Origin: Burkholderiales bacterium
GTDB taxonomy: Bacteria; Pseudomonadota; Gammaproteobacteria; Burkholderiales; Casimicrobiaceae
Direction of reading: 5' to 3'
Assembly (NCBI GenBank): GCA_025352105.1
Contig: JANXUB010000045.1
Coordinates: 1-64,000 of the forward strand
Length of the DNA stretch: 64,000 bases
Position numbers and translations under genes: made by a program. The stretch's first letter is position 1, and every line of letters begins with the position of its first letter. The notes below the pieces were generated by a model. It saw only the letters and a list, made by a program, of their open reading frames with translations. It ran no database searches and was not told the DNA's origin. This document shows positions 125 to 62,226 of this stretch, piece by piece.

Positions 125-149
125 CCGGACACTAGTGCCGAATCGATGC

Positions 150-13070: not shown

Positions 13071-13253
13071 GGTGAGCTCCCTGTGTTTTCGGAAAAACAT
13101 TGTACGAACCTGTCGCTGGTCGCAGCAACACTGGCTGTATGACTACACGCTGTCGCCCGAAACCGCATCTCGGTTAGCACCGTTTGCAGCCAATGCGTGA
13201 ATCAAGCCGCGTACGCAAATCCTGAACAGCTTTTTTTGATTTGTGTCTATTCA

Positions 13254-13328
13254 TGGCGGGATACATGCCAATTTTATTAAAAGTCGACTTTGCGATAAAT
13301 TAGGTACTGCATCGCTGCACCCCCAATG
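13254..13328 (-). repeat. Dispersed intergenic repeat family A, copy 2
   Basis: Reverse strand: CATTGGGGGTGCAGCGATGCAGTACCTAATTTATCGCAAAGTCGACTTTTAATAAAATTGGCATGTATCCCGCCATG; shares the ends and TCGACTTT core with other copies. Confidence 0.6.
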
Positions 13329-13516
13329 AAATGGTGCTTCAACAGAATTTAGTGGAATAGTTGTTGATTAAATTTCGCCAGGTTCCATGTCGGTAAAGCA
13401 CAAAAAGCGCATCAATTTAGCTATACCGACATGCAAACTAGCGACAATGTCACTGCGGGCACAGCGTTTGCTCTCATCGATCACAAAAACGGCCTAACCA
13501 TTTACTCGTCTGCCCT

Positions 13517-16500
13517 ATGACCATTCACGTCGCGCTCAATCACGTTACTCACTACCGCTACGACCGCCCGATCAATCTGGGGCCGCAGATCGTTCGTCTG
13601 CGCCCTGCGCCGCATTGCCGCACGCGAATCATTTCGTATAGCCAGAAGATCGAGCCCGCGGATCACTTCTGCAACTGGCAGCAGGATCCGTACGCGAACT
13701 ACATGGCGCGACTGGTGTTCGCCGAACGCACGCGGGAGTTCAAGGTCACGGTGGACGTCGTGGCCGAAATGTCGGTGCTAAATCCGTTCGATTTCTTTTT
13801 GGAGCCGTCGGCCGAGAAAGCGCCATTCACCTATTCGAACGAATTGAAGCTCGAACTTGCGCCTTATCTCGGCACGGTGCCGATGACGCCGATGGTGACC
13901 GAGTATCTGAAAAAAGTGGATGTCTCCAAGCGGCGCACGATTGACTTTTTAGTCGAGCTGAACGCGATGCTCTACAAGGACATTCGCTACCTGATCCGCA
14001 TGGAGCCCGGCGTGCAGACGCCAGAGCAAACGTTGACGCTCAAGTCCGGTTCGTGCCGCGATTCTGGTTGGTTGCTGGTGCAGTTGATGCGCCATCTAGG
14101 GCTGGCTGCGCGGTTCGTTTCGGGTTATTTGATTCAGCTGACGCCCGACGTGAAATCCATTGACGGCCCGAGTGGTCCTGCGGCTGACTTCACCGATTTG
14201 CATGCGTGGTGTGAGGTGTATTTGCCCGGCGCCGGCTGGGTGGGGCTTGACCCAACGTCGGGCCTCTTCGCGGGCGAAGGCCACATCCCGCTCGCCTGCA
14301 CACCCCAGCCCTCCTCTGCTGCGCCGATTGAAGGCGCGGTTGATAAGAGCGAGGTCGAGTTCGATCACCAGATGTCGGTCATGCGCGTTTACGAATCGCC
14401 GCGCGTGACGAAGCCCTACACCGAGGCCGCATGGGAAACCGTGCTCGATCTCGGCGAAAAAGTGGATCGCGATCTGATCGCGGGTGATGTGCGACTGACG
14501 ATGGGTGGCGAGCCGACCTTCGTTGCGGACAAGGATCGCGATGCGCCGGAGTGGAACATCGCGGCGCTCGGCCCGACCAAGCGCGGCTACGCCAATGCGT
14601 TGGTACAGAAACTTCGAGCGCAATACGGCGAAGGTGGCTTCTTGCATTTCGGACAGGGCAAGTGGTATCCCGGCGAGCAATTGCCGCGTTGGGCGCTGTC
14701 GATTTTCTGGCGCAAAGACGGCAAGAGCATCTGGCAGAACCCGGAGTTGTTTGCCGATGAGCGGAAAGCATCGAAATACACCAGCGCCGACGCGCTGCGC
14801 TTCACGAAGACGCTGACCGATAAGCTCGGCATTGGCGAGGCCACCATCACGCCGGGCTATGAGGATTCGTTCTATTACTGGTGGCGCGAACGCCGTTTGC
14901 CGGTGAATGTGGAAGCGCTGGACGCACGATTAGGCGATGAGCTGGAAGCGGCTCGTTTGCGCAAAGTGTTCGAGCAGGGATTGACCGCACCGGTGGGCTA
15001 CGTGTTGCCGTTGGTTCCGGTGAGCGAGGCACCAAACGCGGTGATGGGCATGACGCTCGACGGCCCGCGCTGGACAACGAACCCGTGGTTCTTCCGCGAC
15101 AACCGCATGTTCCTGATCCCCGGTGATTCCGCGATGGGCTACCGCCTGCCACTCGAATCGCTGCCGTGGGCGAAGGCGTCCGAAAAACCGCAAGTGCTTG
15201 ATCGCGACACGTTTGATCCGCGTGACGAGCTGCCTGAGCCGCGAACGTTCATTGAGCGCTATGGCGTGACGCGTGGCGCATTTGATGTCACGCCAATCAC
15301 GATGCAATCCCGCGTGCCGGGTGCGACGACTTCATCATCGGTGAAGGGTAACGCCACGCCGCTGTCGCCGGGCGCTTCTGCTCGTGACGTCGGTATGGGT
15401 GTCTTGCAACCGACACAAACCGCAGCAGGTAGTGACGCCCCCGCCCATGGCGACAGCGCAAAATCAGCGCTCGCCGCAAAGCCTTACGAGCCCGCCACGA
15501 CGACGCTCATGCCTGCGCGTTTCGAGTCCGCGCACTGGCTCTCACGCACTGCACTGTGCGTAGAAGCTCGGGGCGGCATCCTGTATGTGTTCATGCCTCC
15601 CGCAAAAATGCTGGAGGACTATCTCGACCTGTTGGCCGCGATTGAGGCGACCGCTGAAGAATGCGAAGTCAAGCTCGTGCTCGAAGGCTACCCGCCACCG
15701 CGCGACCCGCGTTTGAAGCTGTTGCAGGTGACGCCCGACCCCGGTGTGATTGAGGTGAATATTCATCCGGCGCACAACTGGAGCGAGCTCGTTGAGCACA
15801 CAGAATTTTTGTATCAGGCAGCATTCGAAGAGCACCTGTGCGCCGAAAAATTCGCACTCGACGGCAAACACACCGGCACCGGTGGCGGCAACCATTTCGT
15901 TATGGGCGGCGCGACGCCCGCCGATTCGCCCTTCCTGCGCAAGCCGGAATTGCTGGCCAGCCTCGTTGCCTATTGGCACAACCATCCGAGTCTGTCGTAC
16001 CTGTTCAGCGGCCTGTTCATTGGGCCGACGAGTCAAGCGCCGCGTATCGACGAAGCCCGCAACGACCAACTCTACGAACTCGAAATTGCGCTCGAACAAA
16101 TCGAGAAGAATCGCAAGATTCACGGCGAAGCCATGCCACCGTGGCTCGTTGACCGCACGTTGCGCAACATCCTCGTTGATGTGACTGGCAACACCCATCG
16201 CAGCGAGTTCTGCATCGACAAACTCTACTCACCCGACGGCCCGACCGGTCGCTTGGGGTTGCTCGAATTGCGCGCCTTCGAAATGCCGCCTCACGCGCGC
16301 ATGAGCATCGTGCAGCAGCTCCTGCTGCGCGCGCTGGTCGCCCGTTTCTGGAAGCAACCGAAGCATCACAAATTGACGCGTTGGGGCACGGCGTTGCATG
16401 ACCGTTTCATGCTGCCGACCTTCATCAAAATGGACTTCGAGGATGTGCTCGAAGACCTCTCGATGCCCGAGAACGGCGGCTATCAGTTCGACCCCGCGTG

Positions 16501-17065
16501 GTTCGCGCCGCACTTCGAGTTCCGCTTTCCGCTGTTCGGAGAAATTGCAATTTCCGGCATGGAAGTCGCCATTCGTGGCGCGCTGGAGCCGTGGCATGTC
16601 ATGGGCGAAGAAGGGGGCGCGGGCGGCATGGTGCGCTACGTAGACTCATCGCTGGAACGCCTCGAAGTCAGCGTGACCGGGCACGTCGATTCGCGCTACG
16701 TGATCACGGCCAACGGAATTGCGCTGCCCCTACAACCGACCGGCACGGTTGGCCATGCTGTCGCCAGCGTTCGCTACAAAGCTTGGAACCCGCCGTCCGC
16801 CCTGCACCCAAGCATTCAGCTTCATGCGCCCGTCACCTTTGACGTCGTTGATACGTGGATGGAGCGGAGCCTCGGCGGCTGCCAGTACCACGTCCAACAT
16901 CCGGGCGGTGGCAACCCCAGCACCTTTCCGATCAACGCCTACGAGGCCGAATCTCGCCGCCTGACACGCTTCACGCGCATGGGTCACACGCCGGGCCGTA
17001 TGCGTGTAGCACCCGCGAACATCAGCCCTGAGTTTCCGTTTACGCTGGATTTGCGGCGCGCGTAA
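13517..17065 (+). CDS. Large transglutaminase-like protein with C-terminal DUF2126
   Basis: N-terminal 'HVALNHVTHYRYDRPINLGPQIVRLRPAPH' (Bact_transglu_N), 'SGSCRDSGWLLVQLMRHLGLAARFVSGYLIQL..DLHAWCEVYLPGAGWVGLDPTSG' transglutaminase core, DUF2126-like C-terminus (MGGEPTFV..; HTGTGGGNHFVMGG). Confidence 0.92.
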   Translation: MTIHVALNHVTHYRYDRPINLGPQIVRLRPAPHCRTRIISYSQKIEPADHFCNWQQDPYANYMARLVFAERTREFKVTVDVVAEMSVLNPFDFFLEPSAEKAPFTYSNELKLELAPYLGTVPMTPMVTEYLKKVDVSKRRTIDFLVELNAMLYKDIRYLIRMEPGVQTPEQTLTLKSGSCRDSGWLLVQLMRHLGLAARFVSGYLIQLTPDVKSIDGPSGPAADFTDLHAWCEVYLPGAGWVGLDPTSGLFAGEGHIPLACTPQPSSAAPIEGAVDKSEVEFDHQMSVMRVYESPRVTKPYTEAAWETVLDLGEKVDRDLIAGDVRLTMGGEPTFVADKDRDAPEWNIAALGPTKRGYANALVQKLRAQYGEGGFLHFGQGKWYPGEQLPRWALSIFWRKDGKSIWQNPELFADERKASKYTSADALRFTKTLTDKLGIGEATITPGYEDSFYYWWRERRLPVNVEALDARLGDELEAARLRKVFEQGLTAPVGYVLPLVPVSEAPNAVMGMTLDGPRWTTNPWFFRDNRMFLIPGDSAMGYRLPLESLPWAKASEKPQVLDRDTFDPRDELPEPRTFIERYGVTRGAFDVTPITMQSRVPGATTSSSVKGNATPLSPGASARDVGMGVLQPTQTAAGSDAPAHGDSAKSALAAKPYEPATTTLMPARFESAHWLSRTALCVEARGGILYVFMPPAKMLEDYLDLLAAIEATAEECEVKLVLEGYPPPRDPRLKLLQVTPDPGVIEVNIHPAHNWSELVEHTEFLYQAAFEEHLCAEKFALDGKHTGTGGGNHFVMGGATPADSPFLRKPELLASLVAYWHNHPSLSYLFSGLFIGPTSQAPRIDEARNDQLYELEIALEQIEKNRKIHGEAMPPWLVDRTLRNILVDVTGNTHRSEFCIDKLYSPDGPTGRLGLLELRAFEMPPHARMSIVQQLLLRALVARFWKQPKHHKLTRWGTALHDRFMLPTFIKMDFEDVLEDLSMPENGGYQFDPAWFAPHFEFRFPLFGEIAISGMEVAIRGALEPWHVMGEEGGAGGMVRYVDSSLERLEVSVTGHVDSRYVITANGIALPLQPTGTVGHAVASVRYKAWNPPSALHPSIQLHAPVTFDVVDTWMERSLGGCQYHVQHPGGGNPSTFPINAYEAESRRLTRFTRMGHTPGRMRVAPANISPEFPFTLDLRRA

Positions 17066-29486: not shown

Positions 29487-29557
29487 GAATGATATTTTGC
29501 CGGGGACATCATTTCTCACAATGGCTTCATCTCGTAATCACGGTTGATCGTGGGCTA

Positions 29558-29612
29558 GATGGGGGTTTTAGTCATAAGTCGACTTATTGCTTTTCTTCCG
29601 ATTAGCCCTTTA
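29558..29612 (+). repeat. Dispersed intergenic repeat family A, copy 3
   Basis: GATGGGGGTTTTAGTCATAAGTCGACTTATTGCTTTTCTTCCGATTAGCCCTTT; shares GCTTTTCTTCC...TAGCCCT with the reverse complement of copy 1. Confidence 0.55.
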
Positions 29613-29747
29613 CTAGCTTGCGCTAAACCAAACAAGCTGTTGTGTACTGGCGATCATGATTACTGCCCGATTTTCGGCCCGCCCAACCGATGCGGTGCAA
29701 TCGAAACGCTGTCAGTGACCTTCCGCCGCCTGAGATACCATCGTTTG

Positions 29748-34125: not shown

Positions 34126-34250
34126 TTTTCCGTCTGGTGCGCATCAGATTGCGCGCCGTGGTTACGCCCAAACCACCGTCGATATTGGAAGCGCTTGGTG
34201 CGCACTTTGGTACACACCCTCCTTGTCAGCTTTTCGCTGTAACGCTTATT

Positions 34251-34318
34251 GCAATGGGGGTGCATGACTAAATCAGTATTTATCGACTTTTAGAAAAAAT
34301 TGCGCCGACCCCAAATGC
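34251..34318 (+). repeat. Dispersed intergenic repeat family A, copy 4
   Basis: GCAATGGGGGTGCATGACTAAATCAGTATTTATCGACTTTTAGAAAAAATTGCGCCGACCCCAAATGC; ends are inverted repeats. Confidence 0.65.
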
Positions 34319-34351
34319 AGACGCGCTTTCAGCGCAAAGCTACCTCTCCAT

Positions 34352-35194
34352 TCATCCCAACCGCAACGCCATCACGCCGCCCACAATCACACAGGTTCCA
34401 AGCGCTCGTCTCGGCGTAAATTTTTCTTTCAGCAACCAGCTTCCGAGCAATGCTGCGAACAAGACAGAAGCTTCGCGTAACGCTGCAACGGTCGCCACAG
34501 GCGCGCGGGTCATCGCCCACAGTGCGATGCCGTAGGAGCCGAGCGAGGCCAACGCGCCGCCCGCTGCAATCGGCCACCGCGCCTTCGCATACGGCCATGC
34601 GGCGCGACCACGTCGCGCCAGCACAATCGCCGCAAACGGCCAGCCGTCCAGCACAAACAGAGCCACAACGTATTGCAAAGCGTTGCCGGACACCCGCGCG
34701 CCCAACGCGTCCACCACCGTGTAAATCGCGATTACCACGGCATTGGCCAGCGCGAACAACGTCGCCCGCCGATTGTCGAGCGCATGACGACTGAGACCGA
34801 GCACGAGCACGCCAGCGCAGACGCCGAGCACGCCAGCCCACGCAAACGACGATAAGTGTTCGTTGACCGTGAACGCTGCCGAGACCGCCACGAGCAACGG
34901 CGCAACGCCACGCATCAACGGGTAGGTCAAGCCCATATCGCCGTACTTGTACGCACCTGACAATGCGATGTAGTACGCAATATGAATGATGACGGAGCTC
35001 AAGATGTACGGCCACGCAGCAGCGGACGGCCAGCCGACGATGAGCACCAACGGCAGCGCGATCAGCGAGCCGAGCAGATGAATGAGCGCGGTGTCAAGTG
35101 CCTTGTCGGTGCTCGATTTCACCACCACGTTCCAGCTTGCGTGCAGCAACGCACCGAACAAAACCAACGCCACGATGGGCCAGGTCAATGTCAC
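34352..35194 (-). CDS. DMT/EamA-family transporter
   Basis: Ten hydrophobic segments, 'LRGVAPLLVAVSAAFTVNEHL', 'LREASVLFAALLGSWLLKEKFTPRRALGTCVIVGGVMAL'. Confidence 0.88.
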   Translation of the reverse strand: MTLTWPIVALVLFGALLHASWNVVVKSSTDKALDTALIHLLGSLIALPLVLIVGWPSAAAWPYILSSVIIHIAYYIALSGAYKYGDMGLTYPLMRGVAPLLVAVSAAFTVNEHLSSFAWAGVLGVCAGVLVLGLSRHALDNRRATLFALANAVVIAIYTVVDALGARVSGNALQYVVALFVLDGWPFAAIVLARRGRAAWPYAKARWPIAAGGALASLGSYGIALWAMTRAPVATVAALREASVLFAALLGSWLLKEKFTPRRALGTCVIVGGVMALRLG

Positions 35195-52370: not shown

Positions 52371-52510
52371 CCGCGATGAAGCGCAGCGAAATCGCGGAAC
52401 CGGCGCACGTTGGAGAGGAGAGCCCTCGATTCCGCTGCGCTGCATCGAGGCTACGCGGCGAAACTGCATCACGCAAATTTGGATACAGCTTTGTCATAAG
52501 ACAACCATTT

Positions 52511-52605
52511 CAATTGGGGTAGCCGCTGAAAAATACAATTCTCGACTTTCGCCATTTCACGAGCCTATCCCAATTGCAAAAGGGCTACTACGAAAAAGCT
52601 GTATT
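52511..52605 (+). repeat. Dispersed intergenic repeat family A, copy 5 (most complete)
   Basis: CAATTGGGGTAG...CTCGACTTT...CTATCCCAATTG (12-bp ends, 1 mismatch) followed by AAAAGGGCTACTACGAAAAAGCTGTATT as in copy 1. Confidence 0.75.
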
Positions 52606-52617
52606 CCAGAAATCAAC

Positions 52618-52647
52618 AAAAAAGCGGCCCGAAAGCCGCTTTTTTTG
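52618..52647 (-). terminator. Intrinsic (possibly bidirectional) terminator of the DUF3501 gene
   Basis: AAAAAAGCGGC-ccgaaa-GCCGCTTTTTTT. Confidence 0.85.
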
Positions 52648-52661
52648 CGCCTGAAAGCGAC

Positions 52662-58278: not shown

Positions 58279-58575
58279 TAAATTGAATTCTACGCGTCGG
58301 AAGCAGTGCAGACTGCGCACGTTGTCGCTTTGTTCCGCCGACCAAAGCAATTCCGGCTGAACAACAATGTGGTGTCACCCCGTTGAACAAACCTTCATGC
58401 TTTCGCTGGCAAAGCCTGCGCCGTTTTGCAATCAACACGCCGCTTACAGGCATTCGCCACGAGGAGCACAACTCCGGGATTCGCGCTTTATGGTTCGCGT
58501 GCTTGACGACGTCGCCCTCACTGCATTCGCACTTTTAGGTGCTACCGATTGGCTTTTCTGATAAACGGCTTGTTT

Positions 58576-58640
58576 GTTAGGGCTAGCGCCTGATTTTACT
58601 GATTCTCGACTTTGAGCGTAAATGGCGATTAGCCCTCGTT
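58576..58640 (+). repeat. Dispersed intergenic repeat family A, copy 6
   Basis: GTTAGGGCTAGCGCCTGATTTTACTGATTCTCGACTTTGAGCGTAAATGGCGATTAGCCCTCGTT; strong match to copy 5 left half; inverted-repeat ends. Confidence 0.7.
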
Positions 58641-58789
58641 ATTAAGCCGTCTCGACGCTAAGTTGTTGAAAAAGCGAATCGCGCTCATGCAGAAACCATC
58701 GTTAGCTGAACAAAGCAAAGACAGCGGCACACGGTTTGCTTACTATTGCACCAAGATCGCGCCTTTGCGAACACCACCGTACCCTGACT

Positions 58790-60376
58790 ATGCAAGCCAT
58801 CACGCCACCTCCCGTATCGCATTTCGACGAAATGCTCACTTGGTCGGGTGCGAGCCCCAGTCATTTGCAGAGCCAGTTTCAGACGCAGCTTCAGCATTTT
58901 GGCGGGGCAACGCTGGACGCCCCGCCTGCAGGTCAGTCGCAATCACAGTCACAGTCACAAACATTAGGGCCGCGCGAGCACTACGTGCCGTACGGCAACT
59001 GGCTCGCGGATACGCCGTCGGCATCGCTCACGCAGCGGCGGGCACAGGCCGATTTGCTGTTCCGGCGCATCGGCATTACGTTCACTGTGTATGGCGAAGA
59101 AGGCGGCACTGAGCGACTGATTCCGTCGGACGTCATTCCGCGCATCATCACGGCAGACGAATGGGCGTACCTGGAGCGAGGACTGACGCAGCGGGTGACG
59201 GCGATCAACAAGTTTCTCGCCGACATTTATCACGATCAGGCGATCCTGAAAGCCGGTTTGATTCCGCGCGAACAGATCGAAGGCAACTCGCAATTCCAGA
59301 CCAAGATGGTCGGCGTCAAGGTGCCACACGGTACGTATGCGTCGATCACGGGTGTGGACATCGTTCGCAACAACGACGGCAAATATTACGTGCTGGAAGA
59401 CAACTTGCGCGTTCCCTCGGGCGTGAGCTACATGCTCATGAACCGCAAGATGATGATGCGGCTTTTCCCTGAGCTTTTCCTGCGGCAAACCGTGCGCCCG
59501 GTGGAGCATTATCCGGCCCTGTTGTTGCAGACGCTTCGCGAATCGACCGACATCGACAATCCGACGGTCGTGCTGTTGACACCCGGGCGTTTCAATAGCG
59601 CGTATTTCGAGCACACGTTTCTCGCGCAGCAAATGGGCGTTGAGCTGGTTGAAGGGCAAGACCTGTTCGTTAAAGATGATCGCGTTTACATGCGCACGAC
59701 GAGCGGCTCGCAGCGCGTAGATGTGATGTATCGCCGGCTCGATGACACCTTCCTTGATCCGCTTGCGTTTAACCCGGACTCTGCGCTCGGTGTGCCCGGC
59801 CTGTTCCAAGCCTATGCCAAGGGCAACATCGTAATTTGCAACGCGATTGGCACCGGTGTGGCGGACGACAAATCGATCTATCCCTACGTGCCGGACATGA
59901 TCAAGTTCTACCTCAATGAAGAGCCGATTTTGAACAACGTGCAGACGTATCAATGCAGGAAGCCAGCTGATCTGTCCTACGTGCTCGCGAACATGAAAGA
60001 TCTGGTGGTGAAAGAGGTTCATGGCGCCGGTGGTTACGGGATGCTAGTGGGGCCAGCGTCGACCGCAAAAGAGGTTGAAGATTTCGCCGCGATTGTGAAA
60101 GCGAACCCCAGCAATTACATCGCGCAACCGACGTTATCGCTGTCGAGCTGCCCGACGTTTGTGGAATCTGGCATCGCGCCGCGACACATAGATTTGCGAC
60201 CGTTCGTGTTGACCGGTCGTGAGGTGCGCATGGTTCCGGGCGGGCTCACTCGCGTGGCGCTACGCGAAGGCTCGCTCGTGGTGAACTCGTCACAAGGCGG
60301 CGGCACCAAGGACACTTGGGTGCTCGGTGACAGTGGCGAAACACTCGCAGCCAGTCCGGCCAAGGAGGGCAAGTAG
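58790..60376 (+). CDS. Circularly permuted type-2 ATP-grasp protein (peptide-ligase-like)
   Basis: GITFTVYGEEGGTERLIPSDVIPRIITADEWAYLERGLTQRVTAINKFLADIYHDQAILKAG; VDVMYRRLDDTFLDPLAFNPDSALGVPGLFQAYAKGNIVICNAIGTGVADDKSIYPYVPDMI. Confidence 0.95.
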   Translation: MQAITPPPVSHFDEMLTWSGASPSHLQSQFQTQLQHFGGATLDAPPAGQSQSQSQSQTLGPREHYVPYGNWLADTPSASLTQRRAQADLLFRRIGITFTVYGEEGGTERLIPSDVIPRIITADEWAYLERGLTQRVTAINKFLADIYHDQAILKAGLIPREQIEGNSQFQTKMVGVKVPHGTYASITGVDIVRNNDGKYYVLEDNLRVPSGVSYMLMNRKMMMRLFPELFLRQTVRPVEHYPALLLQTLRESTDIDNPTVVLLTPGRFNSAYFEHTFLAQQMGVELVEGQDLFVKDDRVYMRTTSGSQRVDVMYRRLDDTFLDPLAFNPDSALGVPGLFQAYAKGNIVICNAIGTGVADDKSIYPYVPDMIKFYLNEEPILNNVQTYQCRKPADLSYVLANMKDLVVKEVHGAGGYGMLVGPASTAKEVEDFAAIVKANPSNYIAQPTLSLSSCPTFVESGIAPRHIDLRPFVLTGREVRMVPGGLTRVALREGSLVVNSSQGGGTKDTWVLGDSGETLAASPAKEGK

Positions 60377-60378
60377 TC

Positions 60379-61323
60379 ATGCTGAGCCGCGTTGCCTCCC
60401 ACCTCTACTGGATGAGTCGTTATCTTGAGCGTGCCGAAAACATGGCGCGTATTCTCGATGTTACGCAATCGCTTGCCATGCTGGATCGCTCGGCCGATTC
60501 GGGCGGCGCGATGACCCCCATTGTCATAACCGAAGCGCAAACAGAATTCGCCGAAACGAAGTTGCCCGCGACTTACGCCAACGTGATCGCGTTCCTCGCG
60601 TGGGATAAAAAGCACCCCTCCTCCATCCGCAATTGCTTCGAGGCAACGCGCGAAAATGCGCGCGCTGTGCGTGGCTCGATCACCAGCGAGATGTGGGAAA
60701 ACATCAACGACACCTGGCTTGCAATGCAGGACAAAATGCAAATGATTGACCCGCTGATGACGGGTAACGAATTTTTTGAATGGGTGAAAGAGCGATCCCA
60801 TCTCTTCCGTGGCGTGACCTTTGCCACCGCGCGCCGTGATCAGCCGTATCACTTCACACGACTCGGCACCTTCATCGAACGCGCCGACAACACCGCACGC
60901 ATCCTGAACGTGAAATACGCCGAAGAGTCACCCGACACGTTCGACGAAACGGAGGAAGACAAAGAGACGGATTACTACCGCCTATCAGCCGTGTTGCGCT
61001 CGGTCTCCGCGCTTGAGGCGTATCGCGACACCTATCGGGACGTGATCGACGCCAGACGCGTCGCAGAAATCATGATCTTCGACGACAAACTGCCGCGCTC
61101 ATTGCGCTACTGTCTCGATGAGGCCACCAAGTGCCTCGACGACTTGCCCAAAGACAGCGGCCGTATTCCACGCCGCATCGCCTCCGAAATCAACGCGAAG
61201 CTGCGTTACGGGACGGTAGACGAAGTATTCGACTATGGCCTGAAACGCTACCTTGCGGATTTTTTGGTGGATATGGAACGGCTGGGTACGGCGGTGAATA
61301 CGGCGTACATGGAGTTGCACTGA
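60379..61323 (+). CDS. Alpha-E (DUF403) domain protein
   Basis: MLSRVASHLYWMSRYLERAENMARILDVTQSL..HLFRGVTFATARRDQPYHFTRLGTFIERADNTARILNVKY. Confidence 0.95.
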   Translation: MLSRVASHLYWMSRYLERAENMARILDVTQSLAMLDRSADSGGAMTPIVITEAQTEFAETKLPATYANVIAFLAWDKKHPSSIRNCFEATRENARAVRGSITSEMWENINDTWLAMQDKMQMIDPLMTGNEFFEWVKERSHLFRGVTFATARRDQPYHFTRLGTFIERADNTARILNVKYAEESPDTFDETEEDKETDYYRLSAVLRSVSALEAYRDTYRDVIDARRVAEIMIFDDKLPRSLRYCLDEATKCLDDLPKDSGRIPRRIASEINAKLRYGTVDEVFDYGLKRYLADFLVDMERLGTAVNTAYMELH

Positions 61324-61482
61324 GGCGCTGCGCGCATTAGGGCGAAGTGAGGTCGAGCGAGGTGGAGCGAGGCGGGCAAAGGAAGCCCACCTCACAGAAC
61401 CCGGGCAGTTCATACCGAAATACTCGGCCCGATAAAATCGGCAGTTGTTTCTGCCTTCACTCGCGCTTTCGCGAGGTCAACC

Positions 61483-62226
61483 ATGACTTACTGTGTCGCC
61501 ATGTCCCTGCACGAGGGTATGCTTTTCGCCTCGGATTCCCGCACCAACGCAGGCGTCGACAATGTATCCACATTCTCAAAAATGCATGTCTTTGATGTGC
61601 CGGATGGTGAGCATCAACGCTGCATTGTCGCCGTGAACGCGGGCAACCTGGCGACAACGCAGGGTGTGGTCAGTCAGTTGCGGCGCAAGGCGCTGGTAGA
61701 CGAAGCACACATCCTGAACGCGCCCTCGATGTTTGATGTGGCGGAGCTGTTTGGGCAGGCGATCAAGGCTGCAATTTCGCACGCGGAGGAAAACCAGCTC
61801 ACGCAATCGTCAGTCGATTTCACCTGCACGTTTTTGGTCGGCGGGCAAATTCGTAACGAAGCGCCGCGCTTGTTCTTGATTTATCCGCAGGGTAATTTCA
61901 TCGAGGCGACGAGCGACACGCCGTATTTTCAGATTGGCGAAGGCAAATACGGCAAGCCGATCATTGATCGCGTTGTACGTCCTGAAACACCGATGGCTGA
62001 GGCACTCAAGTCCGCGATGGTGTCATTTGATTCGACGATGAAGTCGAACTTGTCGGTCGGTTTGCCGATCGATGTGTTGATTCTGAAGCGTGATCATTTA
62101 AAGCCGTCGCTGCGCTATCGGGTGACCGAAGACGACGCTTACTTTCAAAATATTCGCAAGGCTTGGGGACAAGGTTTGCGGCAAGTGTTTCAGAGCTTGC
62201 CGCAACCTGACTGGTTTCATCGTTGA
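61483..62226 (+). CDS. Proteasome-type protease Anbu (Ntn hydrolase, peptidase T1-like)
   Basis: M-T-Y-C-V.. (Thr2 as nucleophile), 'GMLFASDSRTNAGVDNVSTFSKMHVFDVP', 'GNLATTQGVVSQL'. Confidence 0.93.
   Translation: MTYCVAMSLHEGMLFASDSRTNAGVDNVSTFSKMHVFDVPDGEHQRCIVAVNAGNLATTQGVVSQLRRKALVDEAHILNAPSMFDVAELFGQAIKAAISHAEENQLTQSSVDFTCTFLVGGQIRNEAPRLFLIYPQGNFIEATSDTPYFQIGEGKYGKPIIDRVVRPETPMAEALKSAMVSFDSTMKSNLSVGLPIDVLILKRDHLKPSLRYRVTEDDAYFQNIRKAWGQGLRQVFQSLPQPDWFHR

Follow-up and report, generated by a model that had tools for sequence, protein, structure and literature searches.

Several hundred copies of a two-fold symmetric 117-bp DNA site, spaced about every 11 kb between genes in an uncultivated group of betaproteobacteria

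An uncultivated group of betaproteobacteria was found to carry several hundred copies per genome of a two-fold symmetric intergenic DNA site of ~117 bp, placed about once per 10 to 12 kb and preserved by selection across species, which looks like a previously unknown landmark for packing or untwisting the chromosome. The starting point was a 64,000-nucleotide stretch of a Burkholderiales bacterium genome (GCA_025352105.1, contig JANXUB010000045.1, positions 1 to 64,000; hereafter the window), in which a first-pass annotation had described six copies of an undescribed dispersed intergenic repeat of about 65 bp. This observation is confirmed, because all six copies are present, intergenic, statistically certain and members of one family, the core of which the annotation had found, although the unit is nearly twice as long and far more numerous than had been described.

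The sequence TCGACTTT occurred 10 times in the window against 1.9 in shuffled sequence, which was suggestive only. A pattern joining the core, the CCC block and AAAGC with free gaps gave 23 hits in the genome and none in the reversed control, and 22 of the 23 hits had exactly the same length although the gaps were free. Comparison of the wider flanks of 19 copies showed a site symmetric about TC|GA, with conserved blocks mirrored at about ±25 and ±54 bp. A sequence-only covariance model of 124 positions (R1) found all six window copies, at least 150 strong listings in the genome with both strands counted, and sites in named relatives, all of which are MAGs labelled Burkholderiales, Betaproteobacteria or Proteobacteria bacterium.

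The copy to which attention was first drawn (copy 5, 52484–52603, dyad at 52543/52544) scored 73.2 bits (E 7.8e-21) and is a full site between convergent genes (aminotransferase and DUF3501), with a separate intrinsic-terminator-like hairpin and T-run just outside it at about 52618–52650, and a site is found at the same place in the relative JANXNI (locus L068, 15728–15847). Copy 4 (34226–34342, dyad at 34284/34285; 71.6 bits, and a score of 94 with the position weight matrix described below) is a full site 9 bp from the 3′ end of the EamA-type gene 34352–35194. Copy 6 (58549–58667, dyad at 58607/58608; 56.9 bits for 58550–58667) is a full site between divergent lolC/E and ATP-grasp genes. Copy 2 (13225–13346, dyad at 13285/13286) is a full site with indels between divergent genes and scored 29.6 bits on the + strand (13226–13346) and 25.3 on the − strand, whereas copy 3 (29521–29641, dyad at 29580/29581; 25.4 bits, E 6e-6) is a full but weaker site between divergent thioesterase-like and chromate transporter-like genes. 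Copy 1 (138–215, + strand, dyad at 155/156; 39.4 bits, model positions 45–122) is the right half of a site only. Because the site is a dyad, its two strands are nearly equivalent, and the "reverse" orientation assigned to copy 2 in the first-pass annotation means little. Similarly, the 3′ extension AAAAAGCTGTAT that had been described as shared by copies 1 and 5 is the conserved outer block that most copies have on both sides. Elsewhere in the window, a cluster at 58790–62226 encodes a circularly permuted ATP-grasp protein (Pfam hit), an unassigned 314-aa protein and a 247-aa proteasome-beta-like protein (weak NCBIfam hit) and resembles Anbu-type bacterial proteasome clusters, and a transglutaminase/DUF2126 protein lies at 13517–17065.

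Iteration of a symmetrised position weight matrix (PWM) on 842 kb of the genome gave 66 ungapped sites, of which 63 scored ≥30, whereas none scored ≥8 in the reversed sequence. The full site reads CAGCTTTT…TGAAA…GGGCTA…A-tract…AAGTCGACTT…A-tract…TAGCCC…TTTCA…AAAAGCTG at fixed spacings. Each half-site consists, by distance in bp from the dyad, of GACTT (0.5–4.5), an A/T tract (11.5–14.5), GC (17.5–18.5), TAGCCC (22.5–27.5), T and A at 31.5 and 34.5, TTTCA (42.5–46.5) and AAAAGCTG (50.5–57.5), and the information is ~79 bits per site. AT- and GC-rich stretches alternate with a period of about 9.7 bp over the site, although this value comes from one averaged profile with a competing peak near 7.25 bp in the flanks. 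The tract at 11.5–14.5 bp is AAAA or TTTT about equally often, as expected if shape rather than base identity is read there.

If the arms paired with each other, changes in them would be compensatory. In 64 sites, the number of complementary partner pairs was 1894 against 1882 in shuffles, and in 151 sites it was 4673 against 4616 (sd 35). The strongest couplings were between neighbouring columns of one block, and mirror pairs made up 2 of the top 200, with 1.6 expected. Each half is therefore read independently as double-stranded DNA, and not as RNA or a hairpin.

In the closest relative (genome G015, with neighbouring proteins up to 98% identical), 10 of 12 sites of the window's genome for which both flanks were matched have a site at the same place. 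Columns of high information are 85% identical between orthologous sites, whereas spacers are 36% identical, close to the 30% average of unrelated copies (maximum 0.67, against 0.64 in column shuffles), and the spacing is kept with few exceptions. In a further comparison of intergenic regions, a site was present in 5 of 5 in G015 and in 4 of 6 in the more distant complete genome G004, where the two missing correspond to weaker sites of the window's genome. Sites were found in the lolC/E upstream region, that of copy 6, in G015, G011, G004, G005, G003 and, much diverged, G012, all of the same genus, and a site or variant lies just downstream of gyrA in most genomes of the genus. These results indicate purifying selection rather than a live or decaying MITE.

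Pooled over three genomes (2.4 Mb, 194 sites), 61 sites lie between convergent genes (27.5 expected by length) and 28 between divergent genes (56.7 expected), and 1 of 193 lies inside a predicted gene. The median distance is 22 bp to a gene 3′ end and 120 bp to a gene start, with gene calls taken from our own hexamer-based gene finder rather than a standard annotation. Relative to placement in random intergenic regions, the sites are over-dispersed. In G004, the gaps have a CV of 0.44 (null 0.89, minimum of 1000 nulls 0.64), and there is 1 gap <4 kb against 13.3 expected; the corresponding numbers of short gaps are 6 against 14.6 in the window's genome and 8 against 18.0 in G015, in both of which the spacing is only moderately regular (CV 0.67–0.70). 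Mean gaps are about 10.0, 10.2 and 12.0 kb. Extrapolation from 842 kb of the window's genome, 796 kb of G015 and 800 kb of G004 gives about 360, 410 and 325 copies, respectively.

The 123 best sites of G004 are uniform along its 4.47-Mb chromosome (KS p 0.88). The only very large gap in its first 640 kb, of 105 kb (G004 contig C1, 110–215 kb, loci L318 and L320), coincides with an island that would be expected to hold ~8 sites and has none. Its genes look like conjugative transfer (coupling-protein-like), SNF2 helicases, a large DNA methyltransferase and a PglZ-like protein, assigned by reading the sequences and not by profile search, and by appearance it is an integrative conjugative element with a BREX- or DISARM-like defence island. 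Without the island, the CV is 0.446 (p<5e-5). A search of viral contigs in IMG/VR gave nine pattern hits, none of which scores as a site, and so a viral source was rejected.

The window begins (1–137, + strand) with the 3′ end of a 1,352-bp IS4-type insertion sequence (DDE_Tnp_1 + DUF4372 transposase; terminal CACTAGTGTCCGGTTAAAAC) that has split copy 1. An identical terminus occurs at 17 places in the genome, and full copies are present in loci L021, which gave the 399-aa transposase, and L215. All 16 ends with flanking DNA lie in the 117-bp site. Positions 138–146 (+ strand) are the 9-bp target-site duplication CCGAATCGA, the other copy of which, with the left half of the site, is on contig C192 (locus L214, compared with the junction in L210). 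C192 continues the window's contig to the left across the insertion sequence, which also explains several contig breaks of this assembly. Matching the junctions by eye gave seven complete insertions with perfect 9-bp duplications (for example, CCGAATCGA for copy 1 with C192, and TCCGTTCAG for contigs C198 with C65), each centred 13.5 bp from the dyad, on the A-tract. This resembles the REP-targeting insertion sequences ISPsy8, ISPa11, ISPpu9/10 and ISRm22 (PMC1525189) and suggests that the A-tract is bent or exposed. In addition, at G000:C156:113905–114190 (locus L222), a left and a right half-site lie about 160 bp further apart than normal, as if a small insertion had split one site.

R1 found nothing in 6 other genera of the family or in the 273 other genomes among 274 examined from the class, and so, among the genomes searched, the site was found only in this genus. 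A first scan of relatives suggested absence from several members of the genus, but a loose scan of G006 gave about 48 listings with E<0.01, some of them the two strands of one site, and variants with different cores but recognisable GGGC/GCCC and outer blocks were read at loci in G001, G006 and G010. The consensus has thus diverged rather than vanished, although a joint alignment of these variants was too mixed to model. G004 mostly has one more base between the inner and outer blocks on one or both sides. Only G008 and G016, the two smallest genomes of the genus (2.5–2.6 Mb), look empty, with few first-look candidates, no site hits and no Y1_Tnp genes, which may reflect loss of the whole site system with genome reduction or an early-branching state.

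The best explanation, which we hold with moderate confidence, is that each copy is a double-stranded DNA site read by a two-fold symmetric protein complex that contacts the short blocks (core GACTT, TAGCCC, TTTCA and AAAAGCTG) and bends the DNA at the A-tracts in between, so that the site is wrapped or looped into one nucleoprotein particle. In this view, the particles would form a genome-wide series, about one per 10–12 kb of core chromosome, at gene ends outside promoters, where they would organise or regulate chromosome topology as a domain boundary, loop anchor or supercoil-handling station. The analysis itself establishes the family and its size, symmetry and fixed spacing, the independent double-stranded reading of the arms, purifying selection and positional conservation, the 3′-end and convergent placement, over-dispersion, absence from a conjugative island, restriction to one genus among those searched, and exclusive targeting by an insertion sequence at the A-tract. 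In contrast, that one protein complex binds the site, that the DNA is wrapped, and that the role is chromosomal architecture or topology are inferences from sequence alone, with a reader protein that is hypothetical. The differences in consensus between species (1-bp wider arms in G004 and a quite different core in G006) are unusual for a site read by an essential conserved protein, and selection could serve something local, such as transcript ends.

DNA gyrase is the best named candidate reader, in that each site could be a preferred wrapping and cleavage site with a 4-bp TCGA centre and arms wrapped on the GyrA C-terminal domains, spaced so that each ~11-kb domain has one and placed where converging transcription piles up positive supercoils. 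The E. coli gyrase motif is ~130 bp, symmetric about the 4-bp cleavage site with periodic GC in the arms, and cleavage sites are enriched downstream of transcription units and in BIME-2 (PMC6379681). The size, symmetry, AT/GC periodicity and placement of the present site fit, as they do in comparison with the Mu strong gyrase site. However, the E. coli motif is too degenerate for motif finders (PMC6379681), whereas the present site carries specific 6–8-bp blocks, and the observed period is ~9.7 rather than 10.75 bp, with the competing peak noted above. Furthermore, in a comparison excluding G011, GyrA is 91–94% identical in the C-terminal domain between species with the same and with very different consensus, and no GyrA change tracks the sites, so gyrase is unlikely to be what the consensus follows; we regard this reading as possible but disfavoured. 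A transcription-related site, such as a boundary, insulator or termination aid bound by a regulator with a large operator, would fit the proximity to gene 3′ ends and the enrichment between convergent genes. It appears still less likely, because the site is not an intrinsic terminator (there is no hairpin covariation, and copy 5 has a separate terminator next to it), 28 of 192 intergenic sites lie between divergent genes, and a transcription role does not predict over-dispersion.

The interpretation offered in the first-pass annotation, of an undescribed family that might be a MITE, a REP/BIME-like element or a regulatory or structured RNA site, is partly supported. That the family is undescribed is supported by the absence of an Rfam match in the window, of hits outside the genus in the class, and of a matching description in the papers searched. 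A structured RNA or single-stranded hairpin of REP or attC type, suggested by the inverted-repeat arms, is refuted for the main arms by the absence of covariation. A MITE is not supported, since no target-site duplication was found beyond chance (81 length and boundary combinations, best z 2.8), and there were few unpaired half-sites and none bounding a longer element in the 2.4 Mb examined, which leaves out most of each genome. It remains possible, though unlikely, that the site is a very old miniature element, two ~58-bp transposon ends back to back, spread long ago by a transposase with target immunity and now largely immobile. A site of this information content cannot arise de novo at hundreds of places, so copying must have happened once; the terminal symmetry, the hundreds of dispersed copies and promoter avoidance fit, and target immunity could give over-dispersion. 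Nevertheless, spacers are as different as unrelated DNA while blocks and their spacing stay intact, also at orthologous places, so that this explains a possible origin but little of the present function.

The REP/BIME-like reading holds for behaviour but not for anatomy. As with the BIME-2/REP elements of enterobacteria, there are hundreds of intergenic copies at gene 3′ ends that are specific targets of insertion sequences (PMC1525189), and BIME-2 are in vivo gyrase targets (PMC6379681). The present sites differ in the absence of hairpin covariation and of a GTAG-headed stem, in a single fixed 117-bp unit instead of mosaics, in blocks under purifying selection and in over-dispersed spacing, the last computed for the present sites alone. 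Several different Y1_Tnp (RAYT-like) genes per genome were found, in 15 of 17 genomes, so an ordinary REP family may coexist with these sites; the four Y1_Tnp genes in G004 lie >2 kb from the sites in a listing that did not include every site. MITEs such as Correia-type elements and TIMEs are likewise small and intergenic with terminal inverted repeats, but the present family lacks a target-site duplication and a related full transposon was not found in the 2.4 Mb examined, and its spacers are saturated while blocks are conserved at orthologous positions. The dispersed chromosome-organiser sites matS, parS and those of SlmA and Noc are short symmetric sites repeated on the chromosome and used to position an organising protein. 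As expected of such sites, the present ones lie on the core chromosome and not on foreign DNA, with none in the 105-kb conjugative/defence island and no viral pattern hit that scores as a site. Those are 13–20 bp and mostly concentrated near ori or ter, whereas the present sites are 117 bp, in hundreds of copies and uniform along the chromosome. No described family that we tested accommodates the site.

More tentatively, and less likely than not, the genus may have a chromosome-wide, quasi-regular series of several hundred nucleoprotein assembly sites, one per ~11-kb topological domain, read by a symmetric wrapping protein. This would be a sequence-encoded domain or loop anchor system, loosely comparable to insulator sites of eukaryotes, for which no bacterial precedent is known to us. 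Whether the ~10-kb topological domains of bacterial chromosomes are set by sequence is a long-standing question, and in E. coli they appear largely stochastic. Here is a lineage in which evolution has placed and kept a large, specific DNA site about every 11 kb, at gene ends, in hundreds of copies, so that if the reader is found, domain formation, supercoil handling or loop anchoring could be studied at defined sites. The family also records how a several-hundred-site DNA code drifts between species and shows an insertion sequence that uses it as its only seen target.
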